Of a stretch of 62,179 bases of DNA, positions 11,034 to 33,374 are shown in pieces (positions within the stretch are counted from its first letter, which is position 1; every line of letters begins with the position of its first letter). Origin of the DNA: Pseudomonadota bacterium. Its GTDB lineage: Bacteria > Pseudomonadota > Alphaproteobacteria > Rhodobacterales > Rhodobacteraceae. The translations under genes and the position numbers were made by a program. The stretch spans positions 1 through 62,179 of the forward strand of contig JAKALB010000004.1 in the NCBI GenBank assembly GCA_021813365.1. The letters are read 5' to 3'. The notes under the pieces are model-generated. The model was given only the letters and a program-made list of their open reading frames with translations, was not told the origin of the DNA and made no database searches.

Positions 11034-11070
11034 GATGGGCCTCCGGCGATAGCCCATCCAAACCAGAATC

Positions 11071-11091
11071 GACACAGGTGTCAAGTTTGAC
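11071..11091. promoter_or_regulatory. Two overlapping palindromes (GACAC-AG-GTGTC, GTCAA-GT-TTGAC) in the divergent tetR/oxidoreductase promoter
   Basis: Read directly; minus-strand -35-like TTGACA (79-84) and plus-strand TTGACT (87-92) lie inside them. Confidence 0.55.
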
Positions 11092-11135
11092 TCTGCGGGT
11101 GGACAGGCGCCGGAGGCGCCCCTAGGCTCTGGCCC

Positions 11136-11762
11136 ATGGAACCAGACAAGCAAGACCGTGGCTGGCGCGGATCGGCCGACCTGTGGCTGGATGCGGCCTA
11201 TGAGTTGCTGGTCGAAGGCGGAGTCGAGGCGGTGAAGGTCATGCCGCTGGCCGCCAGGCTGGGCCTTTCGCGAACCTCCTTCTACTGGCACTTCCCGGAT
11301 CGCGAGGCGCTGCTGGCCGGCCTGATTGCGCGGTGGCAGGGTCGAAACACCGGCGTTCTGATCGCTCAGGCCGAGGCGCCCGCTGCCACGATCGCCGAGG
11401 CGATGCTGAACATCATCGACTGCTGGATCACGCCGGAAATGTTCGATTCACGACTGGAATTCGCGATCCGCACCTGGGCGCAGACCGATCCCGCCGTGGC
11501 CCGCGAACAGGCGCAGGCCGACGAGGCACGCATCACCGCCCTGACTGCGCTGTTCCTGCGGTTCCGGTTCGATCCGCGCGAGGCGGAAACCCGGGCGCGG
11601 GCAATCTATCTGACACAGATCGGCTATATCTCGATGCGCACCGAGGAAACGCTGGCACAGCGGCTGCAACGCATTCCGCTCTATGTGAAGGTCTTTGGCG
11701 GCACGGCACCGACCGAGGCCGAGTTGCAGGCCTTTCGCGCCCGCCACGCCGACCGGCTCTAG
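11136..11762 (+). CDS. TetR/AcrR family transcriptional regulator
   Basis: N-terminal HTH (VMPLAARLGLSRTSFYWHFPDREALLAGLI). Confidence 0.88.
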   Translation: MEPDKQDRGWRGSADLWLDAAYELLVEGGVEAVKVMPLAARLGLSRTSFYWHFPDREALLAGLIARWQGRNTGVLIAQAEAPAATIAEAMLNIIDCWITPEMFDSRLEFAIRTWAQTDPAVAREQAQADEARITALTALFLRFRFDPREAETRARAIYLTQIGYISMRTEETLAQRLQRIPLYVKVFGGTAPTEAELQAFRARHADRL

Positions 11763-11765
11763 CGA

Positions 11766-13598
11766 TCACGCACCGGGGTGGTGGCGCCAGCCCATCCGGT
11801 CAAACAGAGGTGCGTAGCGCGCCGAGAGCGCACGGAGAGCGGGGCCATCCAGGCTGTCGTGACAATCCCAGGCCTTGTTGGCCAGACCCAGGATCCGGGG
11901 GGCCAGCATGGGCTCGATCTGCTTGTCCCGGGTGGTGAACTCGGCCCAGAAGCAGCCCTGGACGCCCACGATCCGGTGCGCCACATCCTCGGCGCCTTCG
12001 GGCACTGGCTTCCAGGCCACAACCGCGTCCAGATCGACAAAGGCAGCCCAGGCGGCACCCCAATCCTCGGGCTCGCCGGTGTGGGCCATGTCGAAATACA
12101 CATGCTGGGCCGGGCACATGACAACATCATGCCCGGCCCGCGCCGCCGCCAGGCCCGGGCCCTGCCCCGACCAGGAAAAGATCAGCGCGTTGTTTCCGAT
12201 GCCGCCCTGGCAGCCGCGCGATGCCTCCTCCCAGGCCGCGGTGCGGATACCGTGCCGGCCGACAAACCGCGCCAGGCGCTCCATCGCATAGCCCTGCACG
12301 TCCTCCTGACTGACCAGCCCCATCTGCCGTTTCAGCGTCGCGACCGCCGGGCTCTGCGCCCAGGCACGGGGCGGCAGCTCATCGCCGCCCAGATGCAGCA
12401 TGCCCATCGGGAACAGCCTGCCAATTTCCAGCGAAAGCGGCTCTAACAAGGCCCAGGTCGCTTGCATGGCCGGATTGACGATGTTTCTGGGATAACCCTG
12501 GATCGAGATTTCCTCACGCGGGTCTTCGGCATCGACCAGGCCTTGCACCACGGCATTCAGTCCAAAGCTGTGGGCGGGCACTTCGATTTCGGGCAGAACT
12601 TCGATGTGCAGCTCGCGCGCCCGGCCCAGCACCGCCTGGACATCGGCGCGGCTGTAGCTGCCGCCCGACCGGATGCCGCCACCGAACACGCCCGGAACCG
12701 CACAGCCTTCGCCGCGGAACTCGGTGCCTTGCCACAAGTCCGGACTGGTAACGACCTGCAGGCGGAACGCCTCGTCATCGGCGAAATGCCAATGGAACCG
12801 GTTGAGTTTCACCAGGGCCATCAGATCCAGAAGCCGCAGGATCGTATCGACCTGAAAGTAATGCCGCGCGCAATCCAGATGCTGGCCGCGCCAGGCAAAC
12901 CGCGGCGCGTCGGTGATGCGGCCCAGGGGCAGACGCCCCCCCATCGTCTGCAACAGGGTCATCAGCGTGATCCCGGCGGCGAACCGGCCGCTTGCCGAGC
13001 CGGTTTCCAGCGTGACCCCGGAGTCCGCGATCTGAAGCACATAGGCGCCATCCGAAAGGCCCGGAACGGATCTTTCCCGCAGTGGAAGGCCGGAATCGTC
13101 TCTGAACCGGCCAAAACCCAGCCGTTGCGACAGGCTCTCGATCGCGGCGAAGGCTGCCGGATCACAGGCCAGGCCCGACACTTCGACCGCACCCTCACCC
13201 GGCGCCCAGGCCGAGGGCTGCGGGATCAGCGGCAGACCTTCGAAGGCTGCGACCTCACGGGGCGGAACGTCGGTGAACACGCCTTCGCGCAGGTCCGGCA
13301 GCGCCAGGCATTCCCGGCCGACCCGCAGATAGGCGCCCAGCGGCAGCCAGGCGCGGTTGACCGGGCGATGGCCTTCGGCCTGATATGCCAGAACCAGGTG
13401 ATGCGGCACGCCGGCGGTCAGGTCGGGCAGTTGCACCTCGCCATAACCGGCGAGCTGCCGGATCAGCCTGCCGCCCGACACGACACGCGGCGCCGCCATC
13501 AGCGAAAAGCAGAAGATCGGGGCCGAAAGCGCCGTATCCGATCCGATCTCGCAGTGAATCTCCTCACCTTCGATCCGGGCCTGGAATGTCAGCGTCAT
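11766..13598 (-). CDS. Beta-N-acetylhexosaminidase, GH20, no evident signal peptide
   Basis: LMALVKLNRFHWHFADDEAFRLQV, EVLPEIEVPAHSFG, LHLGGDELPPRAW GH20 motifs. Confidence 0.92.
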   Translation of the reverse strand: MTLTFQARIEGEEIHCEIGSDTALSAPIFCFSLMAAPRVVSGGRLIRQLAGYGEVQLPDLTAGVPHHLVLAYQAEGHRPVNRAWLPLGAYLRVGRECLALPDLREGVFTDVPPREVAAFEGLPLIPQPSAWAPGEGAVEVSGLACDPAAFAAIESLSQRLGFGRFRDDSGLPLRERSVPGLSDGAYVLQIADSGVTLETGSASGRFAAGITLMTLLQTMGGRLPLGRITDAPRFAWRGQHLDCARHYFQVDTILRLLDLMALVKLNRFHWHFADDEAFRLQVVTSPDLWQGTEFRGEGCAVPGVFGGGIRSGGSYSRADVQAVLGRARELHIEVLPEIEVPAHSFGLNAVVQGLVDAEDPREEISIQGYPRNIVNPAMQATWALLEPLSLEIGRLFPMGMLHLGGDELPPRAWAQSPAVATLKRQMGLVSQEDVQGYAMERLARFVGRHGIRTAAWEEASRGCQGGIGNNALIFSWSGQGPGLAAARAGHDVVMCPAQHVYFDMAHTGEPEDWGAAWAAFVDLDAVVAWKPVPEGAEDVAHRIVGVQGCFWAEFTTRDKQIEPMLAPRILGLANKAWDCHDSLDGPALRALSARYAPLFDRMGWRHHPGA

Positions 13599-14356
13599 GG
13601 GGCAGCCTCCTGGCGCAGCTCGGCGACGAAATCGTAGATGTCGGATCGGTAGAGCCCGCGGGTGAACTCGATCGGGCGGCCGGATGGCAGATAGGCGGTC
13701 CGGTCCACGCGCAGGACGGCAGTCCCCTCGCCCAGGTTCAGCAACCGGGCCTCATCACGCCCGATGTTCACCGCATTGATCCGCTGCACGGCGCGGGTCG
13801 GCGCACATCCCGTGGCGCGGAGGATGTCATAGAGCGAGGTCTGCACGGCGTCCGGGTCGGGCAGAATATCCTGGGGCAGTGACGAATATTCCACCGCGAT
13901 CGCCACTCCGTCGGCCGAACGGATCCGGTCCACCCGCGCCACCCGCGCCGCATTGGCCAGGCCCAGCGCCATCTGCTCGTCGGGCGTCGGCAGGAACAGG
14001 CCGCGCCGGATGATCCGGCTGGTCGAGGTCTTGCCGCGGGCGCGCATGTATTCGGTGAAGCTGAGAAGCGCCGACAGCGACTGTTCCATCTTGGCGGGCC
14101 GCGGTTGCACGAAGGTGCCCGCGCCGCGCCGCTGTTCCAGCAACCCCGCCGTCACCAGCTGGGCCACCGCCTGGCGCACCGTCACCCGGCTGACCTGCGC
14201 CAGTTCGGCCAGGTCGCGTTCGGGCGGCAGTTGCGAATCGGCCTCCAGCACCCCCGAGCCGATGGCCGAGGCGATGTGCCGATAAAGCTGGACATAGCGC
14301 GGACCGCGGTTCGGGCGATACCAGCGGTCAGGATGGAACAGGTCGGCGTCGGCCAT
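13595..14356 (-). CDS. GntR family (HutC/UTRA-type) transcriptional regulator
   Basis: N-terminal wHTH (ERDLAELAQVSRVTVRQAVAQLVTAGLLEQRRGAGTFV) plus UTRA-like effector domain; start at MADADLFHPD. Confidence 0.9.
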   Translation of the reverse strand: MADADLFHPDRWYRPNRGPRYVQLYRHIASAIGSGVLEADSQLPPERDLAELAQVSRVTVRQAVAQLVTAGLLEQRRGAGTFVQPRPAKMEQSLSALLSFTEYMRARGKTSTSRIIRRGLFLPTPDEQMALGLANAARVARVDRIRSADGVAIAVEYSSLPQDILPDPDAVQTSLYDILRATGCAPTRAVQRINAVNIGRDEARLLNLGEGTAVLRVDRTAYLPSGRPIEFTRGLYRSDIYDFVAELRQEAAP

Positions 14357-14367
14357 GTGGACCCTTT

Positions 14368-14380
14368 GAATTGGTATTAT
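14368..14380 (+). promoter_or_regulatory. 13-mer GAATTGGTATTAT, copy 1 (gntR leader)
   Basis: Identical 13-mer to 14473-14485; 12 bp upstream of gntR start codon. Confidence 0.55.
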
Positions 14381-14455
14381 TTCTGGGGTCAGGATAGGAC
14401 CACGACAGCGATCAAACCGCTCTTTTCCGACGAAAAGCAAGGGAAAAATGCGGGT

Positions 14456-14485
14456 TTGCGCGGAATCCACATGAATTGGTATTAT
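14456..14485 (+). promoter_or_regulatory. Candidate sigma70 promoter of ABC/amino-sugar operon (TTGCGC-N18-TATTAT), -10 overlapped by 13-mer copy 2 (14473-14485)
   Basis: Spacing and hexamers read directly; a further TTGGTATGGTAT lies at 14509-14520. Confidence 0.45.
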
Positions 14486-14580
14486 ATAGGTAGCAAACCA
14501 GAAAAAACTTGGTATGGTATCGGCAAGAACAGATTCGGCCGCATCGCAGGCCGACGCCAAAGACGACCCAGGGAGAGACC

Positions 14581-15516
14581 ATGTCCGACCAGATGGTGTC
14601 AGACACCGCATCGGCACCGGCCGTCGCGCGCCGGCGCGGGTTGAGCGAGACCTGGTTCGCCTGGCTGCTGATCGCGCCCGCCGTTCTGTTTACCGCCGTG
14701 ATCGTGGCCTGGCCGCTTCTGGAAACCGTCCGGCTGTCCTTCACCGACGCGACGATCAACAGCGAGAGCTGGGTCGGCCTGGCCAATTACCACGAATTGC
14801 TCGGCTCGGCGAAATTCTACGTCGTCGTCGGCCGCACCTTCTTCTGGATGGCGCTTTCGGTGTCGCTGAAGCTGGTGGTCGGGCTGATCGGGGCAAGCCT
14901 TCTGGCCGCCGCCGTCCCCGGCCGCGCGCTGTTCCGGGCGCTGATCATGCCGCCATGGGTGATCCCGATCGCCATCGGCTGCATCGGCTGGCTGTGGCTC
15001 TACAATGGCCAGTTCGGCTTCATCTCGGGCATGGGCCAGCGCCTGGGCCTGCTGGACGGCCCGTTCGAGTTCCTGGCCTACAAGAGATCGGCCTTCTATT
15101 CCGCGATCGTCACCGATGTCTGGGTCGGCACGCCCATGGTGTCGCTGTTCTTCCTTGCTGCCATGCAAGGGGTGAACAGGGATCTTTACGAGGCCGCCTG
15201 GGTCGATGGCGCCGGGCGCTGGTACCGGTTCCGGCGGATCACCATTCCCCAGATCATGCCGACGATCATCTCGATGGCGCTTCTGTCGGCGATCTGGACG
15301 TTCAACAGCTTTGACATCATCTACATCCTGACCCAGGGCGGGCCGCGCGGCGGCACGACGACGATGATCATCGACGCCTACAAGACCGCCTTCGGCAACT
15401 ACAACCTTGGCGAGGGCGCCACGCGTGCCGTGGCCATCGTGGTGCTGCTGGGCCTGTTTTCGCTGGCCTACCTCAACATCCTGAACCGCGTGAACCGGCA
15501 TTACGGGGTGAAATAG
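14581..15516 (+). CDS. Carbohydrate ABC transporter permease (MalF-like)
   Basis: Six TM segments, EAAWVDGAGRWYRFRRITIPQIMPT EAA loop; start MSDQMV preceded by gggagagacc. Confidence 0.9.
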   Translation: MSDQMVSDTASAPAVARRRGLSETWFAWLLIAPAVLFTAVIVAWPLLETVRLSFTDATINSESWVGLANYHELLGSAKFYVVVGRTFFWMALSVSLKLVVGLIGASLLAAAVPGRALFRALIMPPWVIPIAIGCIGWLWLYNGQFGFISGMGQRLGLLDGPFEFLAYKRSAFYSAIVTDVWVGTPMVSLFFLAAMQGVNRDLYEAAWVDGAGRWYRFRRITIPQIMPTIISMALLSAIWTFNSFDIIYILTQGGPRGGTTTMIIDAYKTAFGNYNLGEGATRAVAIVVLLGLFSLAYLNILNRVNRHYGVK

Positions 15517-15517
15517 C

Positions 15518-16363
15518 ATGCGGATGGATCACTATACCCTGCTGCAGAAGATCGGCATCTACCTCGGCATCGGTCTGTTCCTGATGTTCGTGCTGCTGCC
15601 CTTCCTGGAGATGTTCCGCACCAGCCTGTCGCCGATGAGCCACCTGTTCCATGCGCCCTACGAGATCTGGAACAGCGAGATGAGCTTTCAGGCCTACCGC
15701 GACATGTGGGACAAGGTGCCGCTGCTTGGCCGCTACATCTGGAACTCGATCTACATCGCCTCGATGGTGACGGCGCTGTCGATGATCATCATCACCCCGG
15801 CCGCCTATGCCTATGCAAGGCTGGAATTCCCGCTGAAGGCGCTGTCGCTGGGGGCGTTCCTGTCGATCAACATGTTCGCCGGCGCGGTCCTGCTGATCCC
15901 GCTGTACCGGCTGCTGAACAGCCTGCATCTGCTGAACACCTACTGGGCGATGATCATCCCGGGCATCGCCTTCCTGATCCCGACCGGCATCTGGCTGCTG
16001 AAGGGATATCTCGAGAAGATCCCGCGCGAGCTGGAGGAAGCGGCCTATATCGACGGCGCTTCGCGGGTCTACACGCTGCGCCGGGTGGTTCTGCCACTGG
16101 CCGTGCCGGGGCTGATCGTGGTCGGAACCTCGGTCTTCATCGGCGCTTATGCCCAGCAATACCTGTTCGCCATCACCTTCAACCAGGTGAAGGAACTGCA
16201 ACCGCTGCCCGCGGGTCTGAACCAGTTCATCGGCTATCAGTCGGTGGAATGGAACCAGATGATGGCCGCGGCCCTGACCGGGGTTCTGCCGGTCATGGCC
16301 GTGTTCTTCTTCCTGCAGAAATACCTCGTCGCCGGCCTGACCGCCGGGGCGGTGAAAGAGTGA
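15518..16363 (+). CDS. Carbohydrate ABC transporter permease (MalG-like)
   Basis: EEAAYIDGASRVYTLRRVVLPLAVPG EAA loop. Confidence 0.92.
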   Translation: MRMDHYTLLQKIGIYLGIGLFLMFVLLPFLEMFRTSLSPMSHLFHAPYEIWNSEMSFQAYRDMWDKVPLLGRYIWNSIYIASMVTALSMIIITPAAYAYARLEFPLKALSLGAFLSINMFAGAVLLIPLYRLLNSLHLLNTYWAMIIPGIAFLIPTGIWLLKGYLEKIPRELEEAAYIDGASRVYTLRRVVLPLAVPGLIVVGTSVFIGAYAQQYLFAITFNQVKELQPLPAGLNQFIGYQSVEWNQMMAAALTGVLPVMAVFFFLQKYLVAGLTAGAVKE

Positions 16364-16397
16364 CCAATAACATGTACCAACCAAGGGAGACTATGGA

Positions 16398-17618
16398 ATG
16401 AAACATACCAGAACCCTGCTTCTCGCAGCGACCCTTCTGGGCGGCACTGCGGTTGCGGCCGGCGCCACGGAACTGAGCGTGATCCTGTGCGGCGATGCGC
16501 GTCCGGCGGACCAGGCGGTGGTGGACAAGTTCCAGGCCGACAATCCCGACATCAAGGTCAGCATCGAGCAGGTTCCCTGGGGCACCTGCCAGGACAAGGC
16601 GATGACCCTGGCCGCAGCCGGCAACCCGGTGGGCCTGGCCTATATCGGCTCGCGCACCTTGTTGAAGCTGTCCAAGGACGACCTGATCGTTCCGGCCGAA
16701 ATTTCCGCCGACATGGTCGACAAATACCAGCCCGGCGTTCTGAAGACCGTGTCTTCGGGTGGCAAGTACTGGGGCTATCCGCACGCCTTCTCGACCAAGG
16801 CGCTCTACATCAACTGCGACCTCGTGACCAAGGCCGGCATGGAGTGCAAGGCGCCGGAGACCTGGGCCGACATGATCGCCATGGCCAAGGCGATCAAGGA
16901 GAAGGACGGCGTCGCGGGCATCGGCATCGCGGGCAAGGACTTCGACAACACGATGCACATGTTCCTCGATTTCCTCTACTCGAACGGCGGCAGCGTGCTC
17001 AATGCCGACACCGGCGAGGTGACGCTGGACAGCCCGCAGACCCGCGAAACCCTGCAGATGTATGCCGACATCCTGCCCTATGCCGAAGAAGGCCCGACCG
17101 CCTGGGAACGCGACCAGATGAAGGATCTGTTCAACGACCAGAAGCTGGGCATGTACGTGTCGGGCCCCTGGGCGCGCGGCCAGTCGAAGGACGCGGTTCC
17201 GAACATGCTGGTGGCCCCGGTGCCGCACGGCCCGTCGGGCGCCTCCGGCACGATTCTGATCACCGACTCGCTGGCGGTGTTCAAGCAGAAGGACCCGGCC
17301 GTGCAGGCTGCGGCGCAGAAGCTGGCCGCCGCGATGTCCTCGGGCGATGCGCAGTATGATCTCGACAGCTCCTGGGGCCTGACGCCGATCTTCCAGTATG
17401 AAAAGCTGGGCGTCGAAAAGCCCTACTACATGGACGACCCGTTCTGGGCGATCTTCGTGAACGGCATCTCGACCGGCGGACCCGAGCCGATGGTCACCGA
17501 CTTCAAGTCGCTGCAGGGCGTGTTCACCGCGATGATCCAGGGCGTGATGCTGGGCGAAGGCGGCTCGGTGGACGAGCTGGTGACGCAGGCTGCGGCCGAT
17601 CTGGCCGAAGTGAAGTAA
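16398..17618 (+). CDS. Carbohydrate ABC transporter substrate-binding protein
   Basis: Signal peptide and SBP fold; between permease and ATPase genes. Confidence 0.92.
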   Translation: MKHTRTLLLAATLLGGTAVAAGATELSVILCGDARPADQAVVDKFQADNPDIKVSIEQVPWGTCQDKAMTLAAAGNPVGLAYIGSRTLLKLSKDDLIVPAEISADMVDKYQPGVLKTVSSGGKYWGYPHAFSTKALYINCDLVTKAGMECKAPETWADMIAMAKAIKEKDGVAGIGIAGKDFDNTMHMFLDFLYSNGGSVLNADTGEVTLDSPQTRETLQMYADILPYAEEGPTAWERDQMKDLFNDQKLGMYVSGPWARGQSKDAVPNMLVAPVPHGPSGASGTILITDSLAVFKQKDPAVQAAAQKLAAAMSSGDAQYDLDSSWGLTPIFQYEKLGVEKPYYMDDPFWAIFVNGISTGGPEPMVTDFKSLQGVFTAMIQGVMLGEGGSVDELVTQAAADLAEVK

Positions 17619-17629
17619 CCGGTCGGCGA

Positions 17630-17651
17630 CGGGCGGCCCCAGGGTCGCCCG
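17630..17651 (+). terminator. Strong intergenic hairpin (attenuator or mRNA stabiliser) between SBP and ATPase genes
   Basis: CGGGCGGCCC ca GGGTCGCCCG, 10-bp arms with one G-U; no clear U-tract. Confidence 0.55.
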
Positions 17652-17695
17652 CCTTCCCCCTCGCCCCTCTTCGTTCATTGACTGCCGAGGAATCC

Positions 17696-18793
<1,098 letters not shown>

Positions 18794-18818
18794 CGGGCCT
18801 TCTGAAGGAGAGTTTGCA

Positions 18819-19961
18819 ATGCGTATCGTCACCGCAGGCATCGGCCTGAGGGCCGGTCATGTTCTGTCCACGCTGAAGGCCCAGATGCCCGAGGCCGAGA
18901 TTGTGGGCTATCATGATCCGCAACCGACCTACCTGGAGATGATCGGCACCGACACGCCGCGCTATGACACAATCGAGGCCATGCTGTCGGATGCCCGGCC
19001 CGACCTGTTCTGCGTCTTTTCGCCCAATCTGTTCCACCTCGAACATATCCGGCTGGGGCTTGCGGCCGGGGTGCAGATCTTTACCGAAAAGCCGGTCGTG
19101 GTCTCGATCGAGGAAACCCTGGAACTGGCGCGCCTGCTGTCGATCCACGGCGGGGCGGGGCGGGCGATGGTTGGCCTGGTGCTGCGCTATTCCCAGCACA
19201 TGGTGGACCTGCGCGCCGCGCTGCAGGCCGGGCAGCTCGGCCGCATCGTCAGCCTCGAGGCGAACGAGCATATCGGTCCCTATCACGGCGCCTTCTTCAT
19301 GCGCGACTGGCGACGGATGGTGCGGTGGTCGGGCGGCTTCATGCTGGAAAAGTGCTGCCACGACATCGACATCTACAACATGGTCACAGCTTCGCGGCCC
19401 TCGCGGGTGGCCAGCTTTGGCGGGCGCAAATCGTTCCTCCCCGAGAATGCGCCCGCCTCGAACACCGAGGCCGAGATCTTTCATGTGAAGAAATCGGTCT
19501 GGAACGCGATCGACGATCCGTTCCGCTCCGATGGCGACATCATCGATTTCCAGACGGCGATCCTGCAATACGAAACCGGCGCCAGCCTGGCCTTCCACAC
19601 CAACCTGAACGTGCCCGACGAACACCGCCGGTTCTGCGTGATGGGCACGCATGGCATGGCCGAGGGCGACTTCGTGCGCGGCTATCTGAGGATCACCGCA
19701 CGCGATGGCACCCGCCTGGCGGATCACGATTACTCCCGCGGCGCCGCTGCCAAGGGCGCGCATTATGGCGCGGACGAGTTGATGTGCCGCGACATCGCCG
19801 CCTATCTGCGCGGCCAGACCGCGGGCCTGCCCGTTTCGATCCTCGACGCGATGGAGGCCGGAATTGCCGCGATCGCCCTGGATCAGGCGCGGATCACCGG
19901 CCAGATCGTCGATCTGACCCCGGTCTGGGCGCAACTGGACAGTCATGGGCTGCGCGGATGA
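18819..19961 (+). CDS. Gfo/Idh/MocA family oxidoreductase
   Basis: N-terminal dinucleotide fold, TEKPVVVS motif. Confidence 0.88.
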   Translation: MRIVTAGIGLRAGHVLSTLKAQMPEAEIVGYHDPQPTYLEMIGTDTPRYDTIEAMLSDARPDLFCVFSPNLFHLEHIRLGLAAGVQIFTEKPVVVSIEETLELARLLSIHGGAGRAMVGLVLRYSQHMVDLRAALQAGQLGRIVSLEANEHIGPYHGAFFMRDWRRMVRWSGGFMLEKCCHDIDIYNMVTASRPSRVASFGGRKSFLPENAPASNTEAEIFHVKKSVWNAIDDPFRSDGDIIDFQTAILQYETGASLAFHTNLNVPDEHRRFCVMGTHGMAEGDFVRGYLRITARDGTRLADHDYSRGAAAKGAHYGADELMCRDIAAYLRGQTAGLPVSILDAMEAGIAAIALDQARITGQIVDLTPVWAQLDSHGLRG

Positions 19962-20977
19962 CCGAACCCGGCGCGCATATGGCGGCCGAGATCGCCGAAG
20001 CCCCGGACGCCTTTGCCCGGGCCCTGGTGAAAAGTGTCTCTGACAAGGCCAAAATGCAGATCTCTTCCCTGCATCTGGATCGGGCACGCGCCTTCTACAC
20101 CATCGCCCGCGGCTCGTCCGATGCGGTGGCGAATGTGCTGTCCTACGAATTCATGCGCGAACTCGGCCGGCCGATGACCTCGCTGCCGCCCTCGATCTTT
20201 TCCCTGGGGGGCGGGGTGGATCTGGCGGGTTGTGCGGCGCTGGTGATCAGCCAATCCGGCGCTTCGGACGATCTGGTGCGCTCGGCCGAAGGCGCGCGGC
20301 GCAGCGGGGCTGCCGTCGTGGCCCTGGTCAACACGCCGGGATCCCGGGTCGAGGCCGCCGCCAGCCTGGCCCTGCCGGTGCTGGCCGGCCCCGAACTGGC
20401 GGTGCCGGCCACCAAGACGGTCATCGCCTCCATCGCTGCCGGCATGGCGCTGCTGGCGCAACTGGCCCCCGGCTATGGCGCCCGCGCCGACGACTCGGCC
20501 GCCGCGCTGCGCGGTCTCGCCGGCCAGGCCCTGCCCGAGACCAGGGCGCTGATCGCCGCCTTCCTGCGCGCTCAGCATGTCTATGTCATCGGCCGCGATA
20601 CCGGATTCGGCGCGGCGCAGGAACTGGCGCTGAAGCTGAAGGAAACCTGCGCCCTGCATGCCGAGGCCTACTCTGCCACCGAAGTGCTGCACGGCCCGCT
20701 GCAACTGGCGACCAATCCGCTGCTGATCGTGATCCTCGATACCGAACAGCCCGATGTGCAAGACAGTCTCGATACGGCCGAAAATCGCCTGCGCGGCGCC
20801 GGAGGAGTGGTGGTGCGGCTGCGCCCCTCGGACATGGGCCTGCGCAACCTGACACCAGCGGCCGCGGCCGCGGCGCTCTTGTGCCTGACCTATCCTCTGG
20901 TGCTGGCCACCGCCGTTGCGCTGGGGCATGACCCGGATCACCCGGCCACGCTTGCAAAAATGACACGGACGACATGA
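19958..20977 (+). CDS. SIS-domain protein, GlmS-C/NagB-II-like (candidate glucosamine-6-P deaminase)
   Basis: ARGSSDAVANVLSYEFMRELGRP, GPELAVPATKTV, ELALKLKETCALHAEAYSATEVLHGP; ATGA overlap supports start. Confidence 0.85.
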   Translation: MTEPGAHMAAEIAEAPDAFARALVKSVSDKAKMQISSLHLDRARAFYTIARGSSDAVANVLSYEFMRELGRPMTSLPPSIFSLGGGVDLAGCAALVISQSGASDDLVRSAEGARRSGAAVVALVNTPGSRVEAAASLALPVLAGPELAVPATKTVIASIAAGMALLAQLAPGYGARADDSAAALRGLAGQALPETRALIAAFLRAQHVYVIGRDTGFGAAQELALKLKETCALHAEAYSATEVLHGPLQLATNPLLIVILDTEQPDVQDSLDTAENRLRGAGGVVVRLRPSDMGLRNLTPAAAAAALLCLTYPLVLATAVALGHDPDHPATLAKMTRTT

Positions 20978-22038
20978 ACGATCTGAGCCGCCACGCCACC
21001 TGGCAGGAAATCCACGCGCAGCCGGCGCTCTGGGCCGCCTGGGGCCACAGCCTGCCCGTGGCCGAGTTGCGGGCCTGGGTCGCGGCGCAGGGGGCGGGCG
21101 AGGTCTGGTTCTGCGGCGCCGGTTCGTCGGCCTATCTGGGCGACATCCTGTGCAGCCATTTGCCGCTGGGCCGGTTTCGCGCCGTGCCGACGACCGATCT
21201 GGTCAGTCGCCCCGCCAGCTATCTGACCGGACGCAAGCCCCTGATCGTCAGCTTTGGCCGGTCGGGCAACAGCGCCGAAAGCCTGGCCACGCTGGATGCG
21301 CTGGACCGGCTTGCCCCTGATGCCCCGCGGATGAACATCACCTGCAACGCCGCCTCGGCCCTTGCCGGGCGCGCCACTCCGGGCCGCGCGGTGATCCTGC
21401 CCGAGGCCACGCACGACGCGGGCTTTGCCATGACGTCAAGCTTTACCACGATGCTGCTGACCGCCCTGGCAATCTTTGACACCGGAGCGCCGGAATCCGC
21501 GATTCCGGCCATCATGGAGACGCTTTCGGCAACCTTGTCCCGGCTTCTTCCGCAATTCGCCGACCATGCCGCCGCCGCCCGCACCCCGCAGCGCGCCGTC
21601 TTCCTGGGAGCCGGCCCGCTGGCTTTTGCTGCGCGTGAGGCCGCGCTGAAAGTGATGGAGCTGTCCGCCGGCCAGATCGCCGCCCTGTGGGAATCGTCGC
21701 TGGGCTTTCGCCATGGTCCGAAAAGCTTTGTCCGTCCGGGCACCGACATCTGGCTGTTTTTGTCGGCCGATGCCCACGCGGCCCGTTATGACGCCGACCT
21801 TGTGGCCGAGCTGCACCAGCAATTTCCCCAGTGCCGCGTCACCTCGGTCGGGCCGGGCGGCGATCTGGATGTTTCCACTGCGCCCTGGGGCATGGTCCTG
21901 CCGGTCGTTCTGGCTCAGGTGCTGGCCGTCACCTGGTCGGACCGCCTCGGTCTGAACGTCGACGACCCGTTTGCCGGGGCCGGCACGCTCAGTCGTGTCG
22001 TATCAGCCGTAAGGCTGCATCCCGTGGAGGCGCCATGA
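20974..22038 (+). CDS. agaS: SIS-domain protein, AgaS-like (candidate galactosamine-6-P deaminase/isomerase)
   Basis: FCGAGSSAYLGD, LIVSFGRSGNSAESL, GFAMTSSFTTML, ALWESSLGFRHGPKSFV, VDDPFAGAGTLSRVV. Confidence 0.8.
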   Translation: MNDLSRHATWQEIHAQPALWAAWGHSLPVAELRAWVAAQGAGEVWFCGAGSSAYLGDILCSHLPLGRFRAVPTTDLVSRPASYLTGRKPLIVSFGRSGNSAESLATLDALDRLAPDAPRMNITCNAASALAGRATPGRAVILPEATHDAGFAMTSSFTTMLLTALAIFDTGAPESAIPAIMETLSATLSRLLPQFADHAAAARTPQRAVFLGAGPLAFAAREAALKVMELSAGQIAALWESSLGFRHGPKSFVRPGTDIWLFLSADAHAARYDADLVAELHQQFPQCRVTSVGPGGDLDVSTAPWGMVLPVVLAQVLAVTWSDRLGLNVDDPFAGAGTLSRVVSAVRLHPVEAP

Positions 22039-22943
22039 TTGCCGCAGGCATCGACCTTGGAGGCACCAAGATCGAAGCGCAGGTGTTCGACGCCGACTGG
22101 CAGGTCGTGGCTAGGCGGCGCGTCGATACGCCGCGCGTTTATGCCGATCTGGTCTCTGAAATGGCCAAGATCGTGGCCTGGGTGCAAGGGCAGGCCCCCG
22201 GGATTGCGATCGGTGTCGCCTCGGCCGGGCTGATCAACGCCGCCACCGGACTGGCGTTGACCGCCAACCTGCCGGCCACCGGCCGGCCCTTTGTGGCCGA
22301 TCTGACAGCGGCGACGGGCCGCCCGGTCCGCTTTGTGAACGATTGCCGCGCCCTGACCCTGTCCGAGGCGATCTTCGGCGCCGCCAGGGGGCAAAGCCCG
22401 GCAATCGGGCTGATCCTGGGCACCGGCCTGGGCGGTGGCGTTGCGATCGAGGGTCGGCTGATCACTGGCCTCTCCGGCGCGGGCGGCGAGTTCGGGCATT
22501 TCCCGCTGTCGGCCGTCCCGGTCGCCAGGCACAACCTGCCGATCCTGCCCTGCGGCTGTGGCCGCATCGGCTGCACCGAAACGCTGATCGCCGGCCCCGG
22601 CCTGACGCGGCTGGCCAAGGCGCGGACCGGGCGCGACCTGACCCCGCCCGAGATCGCCGCGCGGCGCAGAATCGAGCCTGACATTGCCGAAACCTGGGCG
22701 ATCTGGCTCGAGCTGCTGACCGACCTGCTGATCACCCTGACGATGACCGTCGACCCCGCCTGCATCGTGCTGGGCGGCGGGCTGTCGCGGATCGACGGGC
22801 TGCTCGACGATCTGCGACCGGCGCTGGCCAAGGCGCAACTGCCGGCATTTCCGGTGCCCGAGTTGCGTCTGGCCGAGGGGGGCGATGCCAGCGGCGCGCG
22901 GGGAGCGGCCTGGGCCGCCTGGAGGGATCAGGATCATGGCTGA
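22035..22943 (+). CDS. ROK family sugar kinase (candidate N-acetylhexosamine kinase)
   Basis: AGIDLGGTKIEAQVFD, GTGLGGGVAIEG, PCGCGRIGCTET ROK zinc motif; ATGA overlap supports start. Confidence 0.9.
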   Translation: MIAAGIDLGGTKIEAQVFDADWQVVARRRVDTPRVYADLVSEMAKIVAWVQGQAPGIAIGVASAGLINAATGLALTANLPATGRPFVADLTAATGRPVRFVNDCRALTLSEAIFGAARGQSPAIGLILGTGLGGGVAIEGRLITGLSGAGGEFGHFPLSAVPVARHNLPILPCGCGRIGCTETLIAGPGLTRLAKARTGRDLTPPEIAARRRIEPDIAETWAIWLELLTDLLITLTMTVDPACIVLGGGLSRIDGLLDDLRPALAKAQLPAFPVPELRLAEGGDASGARGAAWAAWRDQDHG

Positions 22944-24231
22944 CATCCTGCGCGACATCATCCGTCGCAATCGGCTGGGCGAACCTGCGGCGATCCCCTC
23001 GGTCTGCACCGCCCATCCCGACGTGCTGCGCGCCTGCCTGGCCCGTGCAGCGCGGCTGGGCCGGCCGCTGGTCGTCGAGGCGACCTCGAATCAGGTGAAT
23101 CAGGACGGCGGCTATACCGGCATGCGCCCGGCCGATTTTGCCGGATTCGTCACGAACATTGCGGAAGACGTGGGTTTTCCGATCTGGCAGCTGGTGCTGG
23201 GCGGCGACCACCTGGGCCCGCAGGCCTGGCGCAGGCAACCGGCGGCGGCGGCGATGGGCAAGGCCCGGGTGATGATCGCCGACTATGTGCGGGCCGGTTT
23301 CACCAAGATTCATCTGGACTGTTCCGAAGGCTGCGCAGGAGAGCCGGCACAGGTTGGCGATGCCACGGCCGCCGCACGGGCGGCCGACCTGGCTGGGGTG
23401 GCAGTGAGCGCCGCCCCAGACCCCGCCGCCCTGTTGTTCGTGATCGGCACCGAGGTTCCGCCTCCCGGCGGCGCGCGGATGGACGAGGCCGGGGATATTC
23501 GGCCCACCACGCCAAATGCAGCCCGGGCCACCCTGGCGGCGCATCGTGCCGCCTTCGTTTCGGCCGGTCTGGAGACGGTCTTGCCGCAGATCGGCGGTCT
23601 GGTCGTGCAGCCGGGTGTCGAGTTTTCGCCCATGCGCGTGCATCACATGCCGCTGGAACGTGACCCTGGCCTGCGCGCCGCGCTGGAGGATTGGCCGCAC
23701 CTGTGTCTCGAGGCGCATTCGACCGATTATCAGAGCCCCGCCTGTTTCCAGCGCCTGGCCGAACTGGGTTTTGCCTTTCAGAAGGTCGGCCCTGCGCTGA
23801 CCTTTGCCTGGCGCGCGGCGATCTATGCCCTGGACCAGTTGGCGCATATCGCCGGCTGGGCCGATCAGCCGCCGCTGGCCGAGGTGATGGAGCGGTTGAT
23901 GCTGGCCAATCCGGCGCATTGGTCGGACCATTACCATCCCGAGGCCGGCGATCTGCGGGTGCAGCGCCATTTCGGCCTGGCCGATCGCATCCGCTACTAC
24001 TGGCCCATGCCGCAGGCCCAGGCCGCCGTCAGCGCCCTGTTTGCGGCATTCGAAGGCAAGATCCTGCCCCGCCCGATGCTGGAGCAGGCCTTCAGGCCGG
24101 CCCTGCTGGACCGCGCCGCCGAAGCCGGCGCCTTCACGGCCGACCGGCTGGCCCAAGCCGCAATTTCCCTGGCGCTCGACCCCTATTTCCTGGATACGGC
24201 GGCCACTCGAACCCTGGAGCCTGACAGATGA
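22936..24231 (+). CDS. GatZ/KbaZ-like protein (annotated as tagatose-bisphosphate aldolase non-catalytic subunit family)
   Basis: IPSVCTAHPDVLRACL, VEATSNQVNQDGGYTGM, LGGDHLGPQAWR, CLEAHSTDYQSP. Confidence 0.88.
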   Translation: MADILRDIIRRNRLGEPAAIPSVCTAHPDVLRACLARAARLGRPLVVEATSNQVNQDGGYTGMRPADFAGFVTNIAEDVGFPIWQLVLGGDHLGPQAWRRQPAAAAMGKARVMIADYVRAGFTKIHLDCSEGCAGEPAQVGDATAAARAADLAGVAVSAAPDPAALLFVIGTEVPPPGGARMDEAGDIRPTTPNAARATLAAHRAAFVSAGLETVLPQIGGLVVQPGVEFSPMRVHHMPLERDPGLRAALEDWPHLCLEAHSTDYQSPACFQRLAELGFAFQKVGPALTFAWRAAIYALDQLAHIAGWADQPPLAEVMERLMLANPAHWSDHYHPEAGDLRVQRHFGLADRIRYYWPMPQAQAAVSALFAAFEGKILPRPMLEQAFRPALLDRAAEAGAFTADRLAQAAISLALDPYFLDTAATRTLEPDR

Positions 24232-25409
24232 GCCGCGCGCTTTGGCTTTGCCCCGACCGGCTGTTTGACGGCGAACGCCTGCAATGCGGGCTGGCCCTCG
24301 GTCTGCTGGATGGCCGCACGACAGAGCTGCGCCCCGTCTCGACCCTGCCGAAAGCGGCGATGCGGCTTGAATTGCCGGGCACTCTGACCCCCGGCTTTCT
24401 GGACTTGCAGGTGAATGGCGGCGGGGATGTGCTGTTCAACACCTCGCCCAGCCCCGCGGGCATCGCGGCCATTGCCGCGGCACATCGGAGGTTCGGCACC
24501 GTCGGAATTCTGCCCACGCTGATCACCGACACGCCCCAGGTTCTGGCCCGCGCCGTCGATGCCGCCCTCGCCGCGCGGCACCGGCCCGGTTTTCTGGGCA
24601 TCCATATCGAAGGCCCGCATCTGTCGATCCCCCGGCGCGGCACGCATCGCGCAGCCTTCATCCGGCCGTTGGACGACACCACCATCGCCCATGTCACCCG
24701 CCTGCGCGCCGCGGGCATTCCGGTGATGCTGACCCTGGCGCCCGAGGCGGTGCAGCCCGGCCAGGTGCGGCGGCTGGCAGAGACCGGCTGCATCGTCTCG
24801 ATCGGGCATTCCGATGCCACGGCCCAGCAAACCCGGGCCCTGCTGGCCGAAGGGGCGAATTGCTTTACCCATCTGTTCAACGCCATGTCGCCCATGCTGA
24901 ACCGCACGCCGGGCGTGACGGGGGCCTGCATCAACTCGACCGCCTATGCCGGGATCATCTGCGACGGCACCCATGTGGCCGACGAGATGGTGGGTCTGGC
25001 GATCCGGGCACGGCCGGTGCCAGACCGGATGTTCCTGGTGTCGGACGCCATGCCCACCGTCGGAGGATCGGATCATTTCAGCCTCTATGGTGACGAGATC
25101 CGGCTGAAGGAAGGCCGTCTGGTCAATGCCGAGGGCTCGCTGGCCGGGGCGCATGTGACCATGGCAGAGAGCCTGGCGCGGCTGATCACGGTTGTGGGCG
25201 TCGACCCGGATCAGGCGCTGCGCATGACCTCGTCGATCCCCGCCCGGGTGATCGGCCGCCCGGACCTGGGCCGCCTGCAAGAGCGCGATCCGGCCGACCT
25301 GCTGCTGCTGGACGACGCCTGGGCCGTCACCGGCACCCTGCTGGCGCGGACCCCGGGCATCCCGGCAGCACCTGCGCTTTTCGTTGACCGCCGGGACGCA
25401 GGGGGCTAA
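24228..25409 (+). CDS. nagA: N-acetylglucosamine-6-phosphate deacetylase NagA
   Basis: LTPGFLDLQVNGGGDVLFN, GIHIEGPHL, SIGHSDATAQQT, CFTHLFNAMSPMLNRTPGVTGA. Confidence 0.93.
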   Translation: MSRALWLCPDRLFDGERLQCGLALGLLDGRTTELRPVSTLPKAAMRLELPGTLTPGFLDLQVNGGGDVLFNTSPSPAGIAAIAAAHRRFGTVGILPTLITDTPQVLARAVDAALAARHRPGFLGIHIEGPHLSIPRRGTHRAAFIRPLDDTTIAHVTRLRAAGIPVMLTLAPEAVQPGQVRRLAETGCIVSIGHSDATAQQTRALLAEGANCFTHLFNAMSPMLNRTPGVTGACINSTAYAGIICDGTHVADEMVGLAIRARPVPDRMFLVSDAMPTVGGSDHFSLYGDEIRLKEGRLVNAEGSLAGAHVTMAESLARLITVVGVDPDQALRMTSSIPARVIGRPDLGRLQERDPADLLLLDDAWAVTGTLLARTPGIPAAPALFVDRRDAGG

Positions 25410-30279: not shown

Positions 30280-31680
30280 TCATGCGCGCCAGGCGCGGAA
30301 GCCGAAGCCGGTGTAATCGCGGGCATAGGCCCGTGCGGCGGCCTGTTCCACGTCGGGGCCATAAATCGCGGCCAGCGGCCATTGCGCCAGTTCGCTGTCG
30401 GCGGGCAGGGGGTGAAACGGCAAGCCCACCTCATCGGTGAGGAAGCGCAAGCCCGCTTCCAGCCGGTCCTCGCGGATCAGCAGATCGGGGCTTTGCACCT
30501 GGGCAAAGCCGGCCAGGGTGGCACCCAGCGAGGCGAACTGGGGCGGTGTCTTCAGTTCGGTCCGCCCGTCCAGCAGATAGTGCAGGAATTCCAGGAAGAT
30601 CAGAAAGGCGGCGCGGTGGTCGGCCTGGCTTGCAAAATCCTGGCCGCGCGGCGGCAGCTCCAGCTTGTGCACCCGTTTCAGATAGGGCCGCAGCTCGGGC
30701 AGGATGTCGCGGTTCAGCACCTGGCAAAAGGCACTGTGGGCGCGGGCGACGGGGTGGCGCAGAACCGTGAAGCTGCGCTGCCCCGGATGGGCCTGCCGCC
30801 ATTTCCGCAAGGATTGCCGGTCGAAATCGCCCTTGAGCCTGCCATACTGGCCCAGCCAGGCCTGAATGCGCGCCTCGGGCCCGGCCTTGATCGGCATGAA
30901 CAGCAGCGGCGCCTGGTCCACGGCCACATAATGCGGCACCGCGGCGTGGCGGACGGGCTCGAAATTGGGCGTGTGCGCCATGCCGAACCAATCCAGCCCT
31001 GCCAGGGCGGCCTGCATCTCGTCGGGGTTGGCGACCTTTTCCGCCGGAGCTTCGGGGTTCTGTTTTTTGAACTTGAAGACCAGCGATTTCAGCCGGCCCT
31101 CCACCCCCAGGAATTCTGCGATGCCATTCAGCACGTCGAGGTCGAGAATGTCTTCGTAATCCAGGTAGAAGGCGGTCTGCCCGGTCTTTTGCAGCCGCGC
31201 CTGGAGTTTCACCTGAAATTCCTGCAGCGTGGTCAGGCGGGCCCGAAATTCGTTGGCGTCAAAGACGGGTCGAACGGTTTTCAGATGCTTGGTGTTGGCC
31301 AGCCACCACTGATCGCTTTGCATCGCGATCTTCCAGCTGATGTAGCTTTCCAGCGCGTTGCGGGTCAGGACGATCTTGGCGCAGGCGGGATCATTCATCA
31401 CCAGATCGAACACGCGCGGGTCGTGATCATGGAAATAGCGGAAGCCGGACAGACCCGGCGTCCTTTCCCGCATGGCCGCGATCAGGCGGGCCGGATCGGC
31501 GCTGCGCTGGGCCAGGGTGACGCCCAGCAGTTCATCCTTGCCTTCGCCGCCCAGGAAATAGGGATTGAACGCCTCGCCATGGCAGGTGACACCGGGAATG
31601 GCGTTCAGGTTCGATTCCAGGAAATTCGAGCCTGTCCGCATTTCGGCCAGGATCACGAAACTGGCAAATTTCGGCATCAT
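30280..31680 (-). CDS. Sulfotransferase (NodH/Stf0-like), possible second degenerate sulfotransferase-like domain
   Basis: SFVILAEMRTGSNFLESNLN and ...HGEAFNPYFLG; C-terminal half has LLFMPIKAG and FTVLRHPVARAHSAF. Confidence 0.82.
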   Translation of the reverse strand: MMPKFASFVILAEMRTGSNFLESNLNAIPGVTCHGEAFNPYFLGGEGKDELLGVTLAQRSADPARLIAAMRERTPGLSGFRYFHDHDPRVFDLVMNDPACAKIVLTRNALESYISWKIAMQSDQWWLANTKHLKTVRPVFDANEFRARLTTLQEFQVKLQARLQKTGQTAFYLDYEDILDLDVLNGIAEFLGVEGRLKSLVFKFKKQNPEAPAEKVANPDEMQAALAGLDWFGMAHTPNFEPVRHAAVPHYVAVDQAPLLFMPIKAGPEARIQAWLGQYGRLKGDFDRQSLRKWRQAHPGQRSFTVLRHPVARAHSAFCQVLNRDILPELRPYLKRVHKLELPPRGQDFASQADHRAAFLIFLEFLHYLLDGRTELKTPPQFASLGATLAGFAQVQSPDLLIREDRLEAGLRFLTDEVGLPFHPLPADSELAQWPLAAIYGPDVEQAAARAYARDYTGFGFRAWRA

Positions 31681-33374
31681 TTCACCAGATAGGGCCGGCC
31701 ACGCCGTGCATTGGGATTGGCGGGCACCTCATCGGCGGGAAAGTCGCCCATCAGCACCGGCTGCATGCCCTGATTGCGCAGGTTCTGCAGGAACTGGCCG
31801 AAACCCTTCAGATCGGCCAGGCGCGGCGCCTCGGTCAGGCGGCGGCCAGAGCGGGGAGCAATTTCGTCGATCACGGCCTGCAACGGCTCCATCGGGTTTT
31901 CCACGAATTCCGACAGGGTCCAGATGCGGACGCGCGCCTTGGTCCAGGGCGACCGCAGGATGCCGATATGTTCGCTTTCGATCTTCTGCAGGCGCGCGGC
32001 CTCGCGCCGGATGTCGGAAAAGTTCCGGTTGGAATGGAACAGCGGGATCGCCCAGGCACCCGAAATCACGCTGATCTGCGCGTTGGGATCGCCCGCCATG
32101 AACCAGGACAGATCCTGCGTGTCGCCGGGGCCGAACTGGAAGCACTGGCGTTCGCCGCGGGTATTCCAGATCAGGTTGGTCAGAAAGCTTTTCGGGTTGT
32201 AGTCGCGGATCGCGGCGCTGTCCGACATCGCGCCGGTGAACACTGTCTCTCCGCCGGCGAAATGCGCGCGATCGGGGGCAAAGAGGTGGCCATGCGCCCG
32301 GGTGTTGGCGATCTTGCCCAGCCAGATCTCGAAATTCTCGAAAAGCTCCGAGAAGCCCTCGAAAACCGAATAGGGCGCGGCGGTGCGGCCGTTTTCAAAG
32401 TTTTCGCGCGGATAGCGGCTTTGCATGTACAGGCCGGCGCGGCCTTTGGTGCGGCGCTCGACCGCCTTGGAAAACAGCCGGTCGATCTTGCCCGGGTTCG
32501 GTTCGGCCTGGGCGGCGGTGTCGAGTTTCGGGCCCAGGAAGGTCTGATACAGCTTGTCGGCATCGGGCCAGATCTTGCGGGCGACAAAACAGTCCGACCG
32601 GCGCAGCAGTTGCAGGTGGTCGTCGTAGAAGATGTGCGGCTTGCCCGAGAAATCGAATTTGGACAGGGTCAGCGAGCGGCTTTCGACATTGGCCGAGAAC
32701 TGCCGCACCATGGTCTGGAAATAGCTTTCGTCGGGGATCCAGACCTTGCGGAAATAACGGTCGATCTCGGCCCGGTCAGGGTTTTCCAGGATGGCGGACA
32801 GGGTCTGCCGGGTCAGGCACCACCACTGGCTGCCCAGATGCGGCACGATGCCGGGCGGCATGCGGCGGCGGAAGCCGACCTTGCGTTGCAGGGCGACATA
32901 GGCGTCGAAGGCGCGGCGCTGGCGGCGCCAGCTGAACGGAAAGCGCAGGGTGAAACGTTCAAGATTCAGGCCGCCCACCGTCCAGCCCACATCCTCGGTG
33001 GTCACGCTTTCGATGAAGTCGGTCTTGGGGCGGCTGTCCAGATAGGCGCGCAGTTCTTCGACCGGGCGAAGCGGCAGGCACGAGCCGGAGGCGAGATAGA
33101 CATGACGCACGCCGGGAAATTCGGCCAGCATCACGCTCGAGGCTGCCTGGGCGGCGGCAACGATGCCCCAGGTGCCCCACTCACAGACGAAGCGGTCCGA
33201 GAAGCGGACGTTGCGGAGATCCTCCAGAGCGCGGATCAGCCCGTCGTAGTCGGCCTTCTTTACCCGGCGGTCGGCATGGATGACGACCGGGCAATCCCGC
33301 TCCGCCCAATAGCGGGCCACCTGCGCGGCGCGGTGCAGCGCGGTGTGGTAAAGGATCACGAAACCGACGGTCAT
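31677..33374 (-). CDS. Core-2/I-branching (GT14-like) glycosyltransferase with C-terminal DUF5927-type domain
   Basis: N-terminal VGFVILYHTALHRAAQVARYW, YLASGSCLPLRP, GSQWWCLTRQTL GT14-like; unassigned C-terminal half. Confidence 0.8.
   Translation of the reverse strand: MTVGFVILYHTALHRAAQVARYWAERDCPVVIHADRRVKKADYDGLIRALEDLRNVRFSDRFVCEWGTWGIVAAAQAASSVMLAEFPGVRHVYLASGSCLPLRPVEELRAYLDSRPKTDFIESVTTEDVGWTVGGLNLERFTLRFPFSWRRQRRAFDAYVALQRKVGFRRRMPPGIVPHLGSQWWCLTRQTLSAILENPDRAEIDRYFRKVWIPDESYFQTMVRQFSANVESRSLTLSKFDFSGKPHIFYDDHLQLLRRSDCFVARKIWPDADKLYQTFLGPKLDTAAQAEPNPGKIDRLFSKAVERRTKGRAGLYMQSRYPRENFENGRTAAPYSVFEGFSELFENFEIWLGKIANTRAHGHLFAPDRAHFAGGETVFTGAMSDSAAIRDYNPKSFLTNLIWNTRGERQCFQFGPGDTQDLSWFMAGDPNAQISVISGAWAIPLFHSNRNFSDIRREAARLQKIESEHIGILRSPWTKARVRIWTLSEFVENPMEPLQAVIDEIAPRSGRRLTEAPRLADLKGFGQFLQNLRNQGMQPVLMGDFPADEVPANPNARRGRPYLVK

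Follow-up and report, generated by a model that had tools for sequence, protein, structure and literature searches.

Bacterial GalNAc catabolism, as described in a 2025 review (PMC12118421), has a tagatose-6-P kinase and an aldolase as its final steps, and AgaZ is named there as a possible kinase. The window analysed here, the whole stretch of 62,179 nucleotides from a member of the Rhodobacteraceae, raises the question of how GalNAc could be used through an operon that encodes AgaS and a GatZ-type protein and no aldolase. The first-pass annotation had recognised five consecutive genes, encoding a NagB-II-like SIS protein, an AgaS-like SIS protein, a ROK kinase, a GatZ-like protein and NagA, and coordinates, overlaps and profile searches bore out this operon (Table 1). 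The five catabolic genes overlap by 8 bp at the ROK/GatZ junction and by 4 bp at the other junctions, and upstream of them, in the same direction, lie the genes of an ABC transporter (two permeases, a solute-binding protein and an ATPase) and a Gfo/Idh/MocA oxidoreductase gene. The span originally given, 19958-25409, is right for the five genes but left out functional parts at 11766-19961, namely the ABC transporter, the Gfo/Idh protein, the GntR regulator and GH20. The GH20 gene, though divergent from the operon, probably belongs to the amino-sugar system.

Table 1. Features of the predicted amino-sugar operon and its surroundings in the window
Feature	Coordinates	Strand	Evidence and remarks
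GH20 beta-N-acetylhexosaminidase	11766..13598	-	PF00728 E=9e-81; overlaps 3' end of GntR gene
GntR/UTRA (HutC-type) regulator	13595..14470	-	PF00392, PF07702; divergent from catabolic operon; start position uncertain
ABC sugar permease 1	14587..15516	+	PF00528
ABC sugar permease 2 (MalG-like)	15518..16363	+	NCBIfam NF008231 E=2e-36
ABC solute-binding protein	16398..17618	+	PF01547 E=7e-32
ABC ATPase (UgpC/MalK type)	17696..18793	+	NF008653, above cut-off
Gfo/Idh/MocA oxidoreductase	18819..19961	+	PF01408
NagB-II-type SIS protein, predicted GlcN6P deaminase	19958..20977	+	NF046059 E=2e-50; glucosamine-6-phosphate deaminase structure 8eol E=1e-38
AgaS-type SIS protein, predicted GalN6P deaminase/isomerase	20974..22038	+	TIGR02815 E=2e-74; PDB 3c3j E=1.5e-56
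ROK kinase, predicted GlcNAc/GalNAc kinase	22035..22943	+	PF00480 E=4e-61
GatZ/KbaZ-like protein, predicted tagatose-6-P 4-epimerase	22936..24231 (alternative start 22885)	+	PF08013 E=1.5e-139
NagA-type deacetylase, predicted for GlcNAc6P and GalNAc6P	24228..25409	+	NF008371 E=1.5e-73

It is likely, and the best-supported reading, that the window carries a dual amino-sugar utilisation operon in which GalNAc is degraded via AgaS and GatZ, and GlcNAc via NagB-II, in an aldolase-free manner. In the proposed pathway, GH20 would release GlcNAc and GalNAc, the ABC transporter would take up both sugars, the ROK kinase would phosphorylate them at C6, and NagA would deacetylate both GlcNAc6P and GalNAc6P. 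NagB-II would then convert GlcN6P to fructose-6-P, and AgaS would convert GalN6P to tagatose-6-P, on which GatZ alone would act by a metal-dependent retro-aldol/aldol reaction at C4 to give fructose-6-P. Since both branches would end in fructose-6-P, GlcNAc and GalNAc would enter central metabolism at one point, and tagatose-6-P kinase and tagatose-bisphosphate aldolase would be dispensable. Every catalytic step is predicted from known homologues. The conversion of GalNAc through tagatose-6-P to fructose-6-P by GatZ, with GlcNAc entering through the second SIS protein, had already been put forward in the first-pass annotation, and it finds support here in comparative evidence: active-site residues, gene co-occurrence, natural variants and the lack of a class II aldolase.

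The window GatZ matched PF08013 with 465.7 bits (gathering cut-off 26.7) over profile positions 1-416 of 420, and TIGR02810, the tagatose-bisphosphate aldolase non-catalytic subunit, with 455.6 bits, below the equivalog cut-off of 568.8. E. coli GatZ and KbaZ produce tagatose-6-P from fructose-6-P in vivo, and for E. coli GatZ a metal-dependent retro-aldol/aldol 4-epimerisation has been proposed as the mechanism, together with seven active-site residues, C20, E44, D87, H88, E171, H257 and K279 (PMC11907403). Their counterparts in the window protein, C24, E48, D91, H92, E173, H261 and K283, were all identical throughout an alignment of 98 sequences, comprising the window GatZ and 97 other family members. 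Earlier stand-alone 4-epimerases, as far as they are cited in PMC11907403, are those of A. tumefaciens, S. meliloti and Caldilinea. The window GatZ shares 43-45% identity with E. coli GatZ/KbaZ and about 48% with a Sinorhizobium meliloti megaplasmid protein. A 72-sequence tree placed the GatZ proteins of amino-sugar operons on one branch (SH-aLRT 99), separate from the rhizobial GatZ encoded beside a PfkB-type (tagatose-like) kinase and from the E. coli pair. We predict that the window GatZ is a tagatose-6-P 4-epimerase.

As for the remaining enzymes, NF046059 was the best family for the NagB-II-type SIS protein (171.9 bits, below the equivalog cut-off of 430), and the AgaS-type protein, which shares 39% identity with E. 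coli AgaS, matched TIGR02815 over nearly its full length with 250.6 bits, below the subfamily cut-off of 529.2. The best NCBIfam match of the ROK kinase was N-acetylglucosamine kinase (E=8e-57, under its cut-off), and NagA reached 216.4 bits against TIGR00221 (E=6e-64), just under the equivalog cut-off of 225.7. Because several of these scores fall below strict NCBIfam equivalog cut-offs, specificity can only be inferred, and such scores fit divergent orthologues. Close homologues have solved structures (3txv, 2fiq). In E. coli, agaS mutants use neither GalNAc nor galactosamine, and nagA and agaA are mutually replaceable (PMC3668189); this interchangeability makes a single NagA for both sugars plausible.

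A scan of genome contigs provided 80 GatZ loci, and more were added by genome searches. Among the 75 amino-sugar loci, 57 contained all five catabolic genes, several of the remainder being interrupted by contig ends, and the identical gene order in those 57 excludes chance as the origin of the arrangement. Carriers of the operon include Tabrizicola, Rhodobacter, Shimia, Yoonia, Octadecabacter, Aliiroseovarius and others, reaching Pseudovibrio. None of the 75 loci contained an aldolase within the cluster, and a GatY-like gene at a distance of up to 3 kb was found at a single locus (L050), on the opposite strand; GatZ of the polyol type, by contrast, adjoins a PfkB-family kinase. GH20 homologues occurred in 49 of the 75 loci. 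The Gfo/Idh/MocA oxidoreductase (18819-19961), superfluous to every proposed pathway step, is kept in 66 of them. A congener of the window genome (G069) has neither AgaS nor GatZ, which makes the operon accessory within the genus. The locus L029 (CP059262.1), labelled Exiguobacterium profundum, is a typical Rhodobacteraceae operon whose GatZ is close to that of G027, a genome of the window's family, and the record is most likely a mislabelled MAG.

Natural variants separate the two branches. One locus (L115) retains NagB-II, ROK and NagA without AgaS and GatZ and is a GlcNAc-only form, while three others (L101, L116 and L117) combine AgaS, ROK, GatZ and GH20 without NagB-II, with NagA in two of the three and an AgaR-like regulator replacing GntR, and are GalNAc-only forms. 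On the evidence of these variants, NagB-II falls into the GlcNAc branch and AgaS with GatZ into the GalNAc branch. In the AgaS-only cluster of G104 (L117 8867-10181), NagA is missing between GatZ and the hexosaminidase, so either the deacetylase must be encoded elsewhere or the imported sugar must differ. In six loci the recovered stretch included AgaS but no GatZ. One of them (L120, genome G049) lies at a contig edge and GatZ was found on another contig; G012, G042, G043 and G070 each have a GatZ of other context elsewhere in the genome; and in G295, a fifth genome with no GatZ in the operon, which came from a wider survey, GatZ was absent from the 400 kb of contig read, beyond which lie 4.2 Mb. 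Three further loci (L107 8331-10363, L118 6896-11195 and L084) associate GatZ with sugar ABC transporter genes and a distant AgaS-like SIS protein (27-31% identity), and possibly represent another amino-sugar or galactosamine system.

The association of AgaS with GatZ was also apparent in 111 genomes of the family, representing 110 genera, of which 12 had AgaS and 21 had GatZ; G080, whose one AgaS relative is distant (31% identity), was not counted among the former. GatZ was present in all 12 AgaS genomes and in nine of the 99 others (Fisher p=7e-11, ignoring shared ancestry). When the eight genomes having GatZ inside the AgaS operon were left aside, the difference persisted (4/4 versus 9/99, p=1.6e-4, shared ancestry again ignored), since four AgaS genomes lack GatZ in the operon and have one elsewhere. 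AgaS showed no association with class II aldolases in the same 111 genomes (p=0.53; borderline for the short type, p=0.06; ancestry ignored), and class II aldolases were missing altogether from five of the 12 AgaS genomes, two of which have GatZ outside the operon. A wider AgaS survey in Alphaproteobacteria added one new genome, belonging to the same family, so AgaS appears nearly confined to the family in that sample.

The gene content of the host genome, a 3.36 Mb assembly that is 91% complete and sets the scope of the absences, bears on the fate of tagatose-6-P. It encodes one GatZ. The first-pass annotation had reported neither GatY/KbaY nor a classical NagB in the window, and both absences extend to the genome: no class II aldolase (PF01116), thus no GatY/KbaY, was found in the assembly, and the only PF01182 protein, a candidate for NagB, proved to be a 6-phosphogluconolactonase. 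Of the cognate GatY/KbaY plus kinase elsewhere that, according to that annotation, would speak against its own reading, the aldolase is accordingly missing from the assembly; at 91% completeness, an aldolase could sit on an absent contig. Two PF01791 proteins considered as LacD-type aldolases turned out to be a class I FBA (L103) and DeoC. No PfkA-type phosphofructokinase (PF00365) was found in the assembly. The genome-wide search for gatY/kbaY and tagatose-6-P kinase that the same annotation had suggested was clear for the aldolase and less so for the kinase, because one of the PfkB-family proteins encoded is a hexose kinase (L006, 1-PFK type), unlinked to the operon. A second FadH/OYE-type oxidoreductase is encoded near this kinase (L125 2949-5000); the first lies in the window (9006-11291, minus strand), between flagellar genes and the hexosaminidase, and resembles the mycofactocin-associated OYE 2 family (under cut-off). 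The window also encodes, at 31677-33374 on the minus strand, a Core-2/I-branching glycosyltransferase domain fused to DUF5927.

The hexose kinase and the class I FBA, encoded elsewhere in the genome, keep a kinase/aldolase bypass of tagatose-6-P as a live rival, in which GalNAc carbon would flow through tagatose-1,6-bisphosphate and GatZ would be accessory. Although the kinase exceeds the TIGR03168 cut-off (247 versus 216 bits), neither gene is linked to the operon, the neighbours of the kinase match no sugar-catabolism family, and the operon retains GatZ without GatY; moreover, AgaS tracks GatZ and not the class II aldolases in the genome comparison. At the operon itself there is no linked kinase apart from ROK, and the kinase and aldolase found beside agaS in the canonical Aga pathway are lacking. 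On balance we regard the bypass as unlikely. A role for GatZ as non-catalytic subunit of a tagatose-bisphosphate aldolase, with the catalytic partner encoded elsewhere, is highly improbable, in spite of the aldolase-subunit name that NCBIfam and most public annotation give to it and of the reported dependence of E. coli KbaY on KbaZ for full activity and stability (PMC3668189). We rejected this role because the host genome has no class II aldolase; four further AgaS genomes likewise lack any PF01116 protein, and the lone GatY-like neighbour among the 75 loci lies on the opposite strand.

A different objection is that the operon might be devoted to a single amino sugar, either GlcNAc or GalNAc, the SIS proteins then duplicating each other or having a related sugar as substrate. 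Two sugars would have to share a single transporter, kinase and deacetylase, and SIS specificity cannot be read with certainty from proteins that both score below their NCBIfam cut-offs. However, the SIS proteins come from two different families, and each is found alone with its own partners, NagB-II without GatZ and AgaS with GatZ and the AgaR-like regulator, so that we consider a single-sugar operon quite improbable.

The dual operon with its GatZ epimerase shares parts with several known systems. As in the E. coli aga/kba pathway, one regulon holds AgaS together with a deacetylase of the NagA/AgaA type and a GatZ/KbaZ protein, but E. coli relies on PTS uptake, a kinase step for tagatose-6-P and the KbaY aldolase, whereas the window encodes ABC transport and a ROK kinase and no aldolase. 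In the galactitol/tagatose route of Agrobacterium and Sinorhizobium, as far as PMC11907403 relates it (citing Wichelecki 2015 and Kohlmeier 2019), GatZ also makes fructose-6-P from tagatose-6-P without GatY; there, tagatose-6-P arises from polyols or tagatose and a PfkB-type kinase, while in the window it would come from galactosamine-6-P through AgaS. The nagTUVW operon of Ruegeria pomeroyi, an alphaproteobacterial GlcNAc ABC operon from a Roseobacter-group bacterium (PMC10130141), resembles the window operon at the level of predicted function, in having an ABC transporter for GlcNAc; the window operon adds AgaS and GatZ. The Shewanella aga pathway, in the account that PMC12118421 gives of Leyn 2012, shares kinase-based entry (AgaK) and AgaS; unlike the window, it continues with AgaZ, proposed as a tagatose-6-P kinase, and an aldolase. 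GatZ 4-epimerase activity and the functions of AgaS and NagA are already known. The GalNAc route without kinase and aldolase looks new, and the literature searched, mostly non-subscription papers, contained no account in which AgaS supplies a GatZ epimerase.

We lean towards the view that the aldolase-free AgaS/GatZ route is standard in GalNAc-using Rhodobacterales and Pseudovibrio, that it arose by the addition of AgaS and GatZ to a GlcNAc operon, and that GatZ/KbaZ of classical aga operons may act likewise, in parallel to the aldolase. The operon would also be a source of further GatZ enzymes for tagatose production. Should the proposed route be true, many GatZ annotations, as inert subunit or kinase, would need revision, the tagatose side would require no second phosphorylation ahead of cleavage, and GalNAc and GlcNAc would converge at fructose-6-P in a large, mostly aquatic bacterial group.
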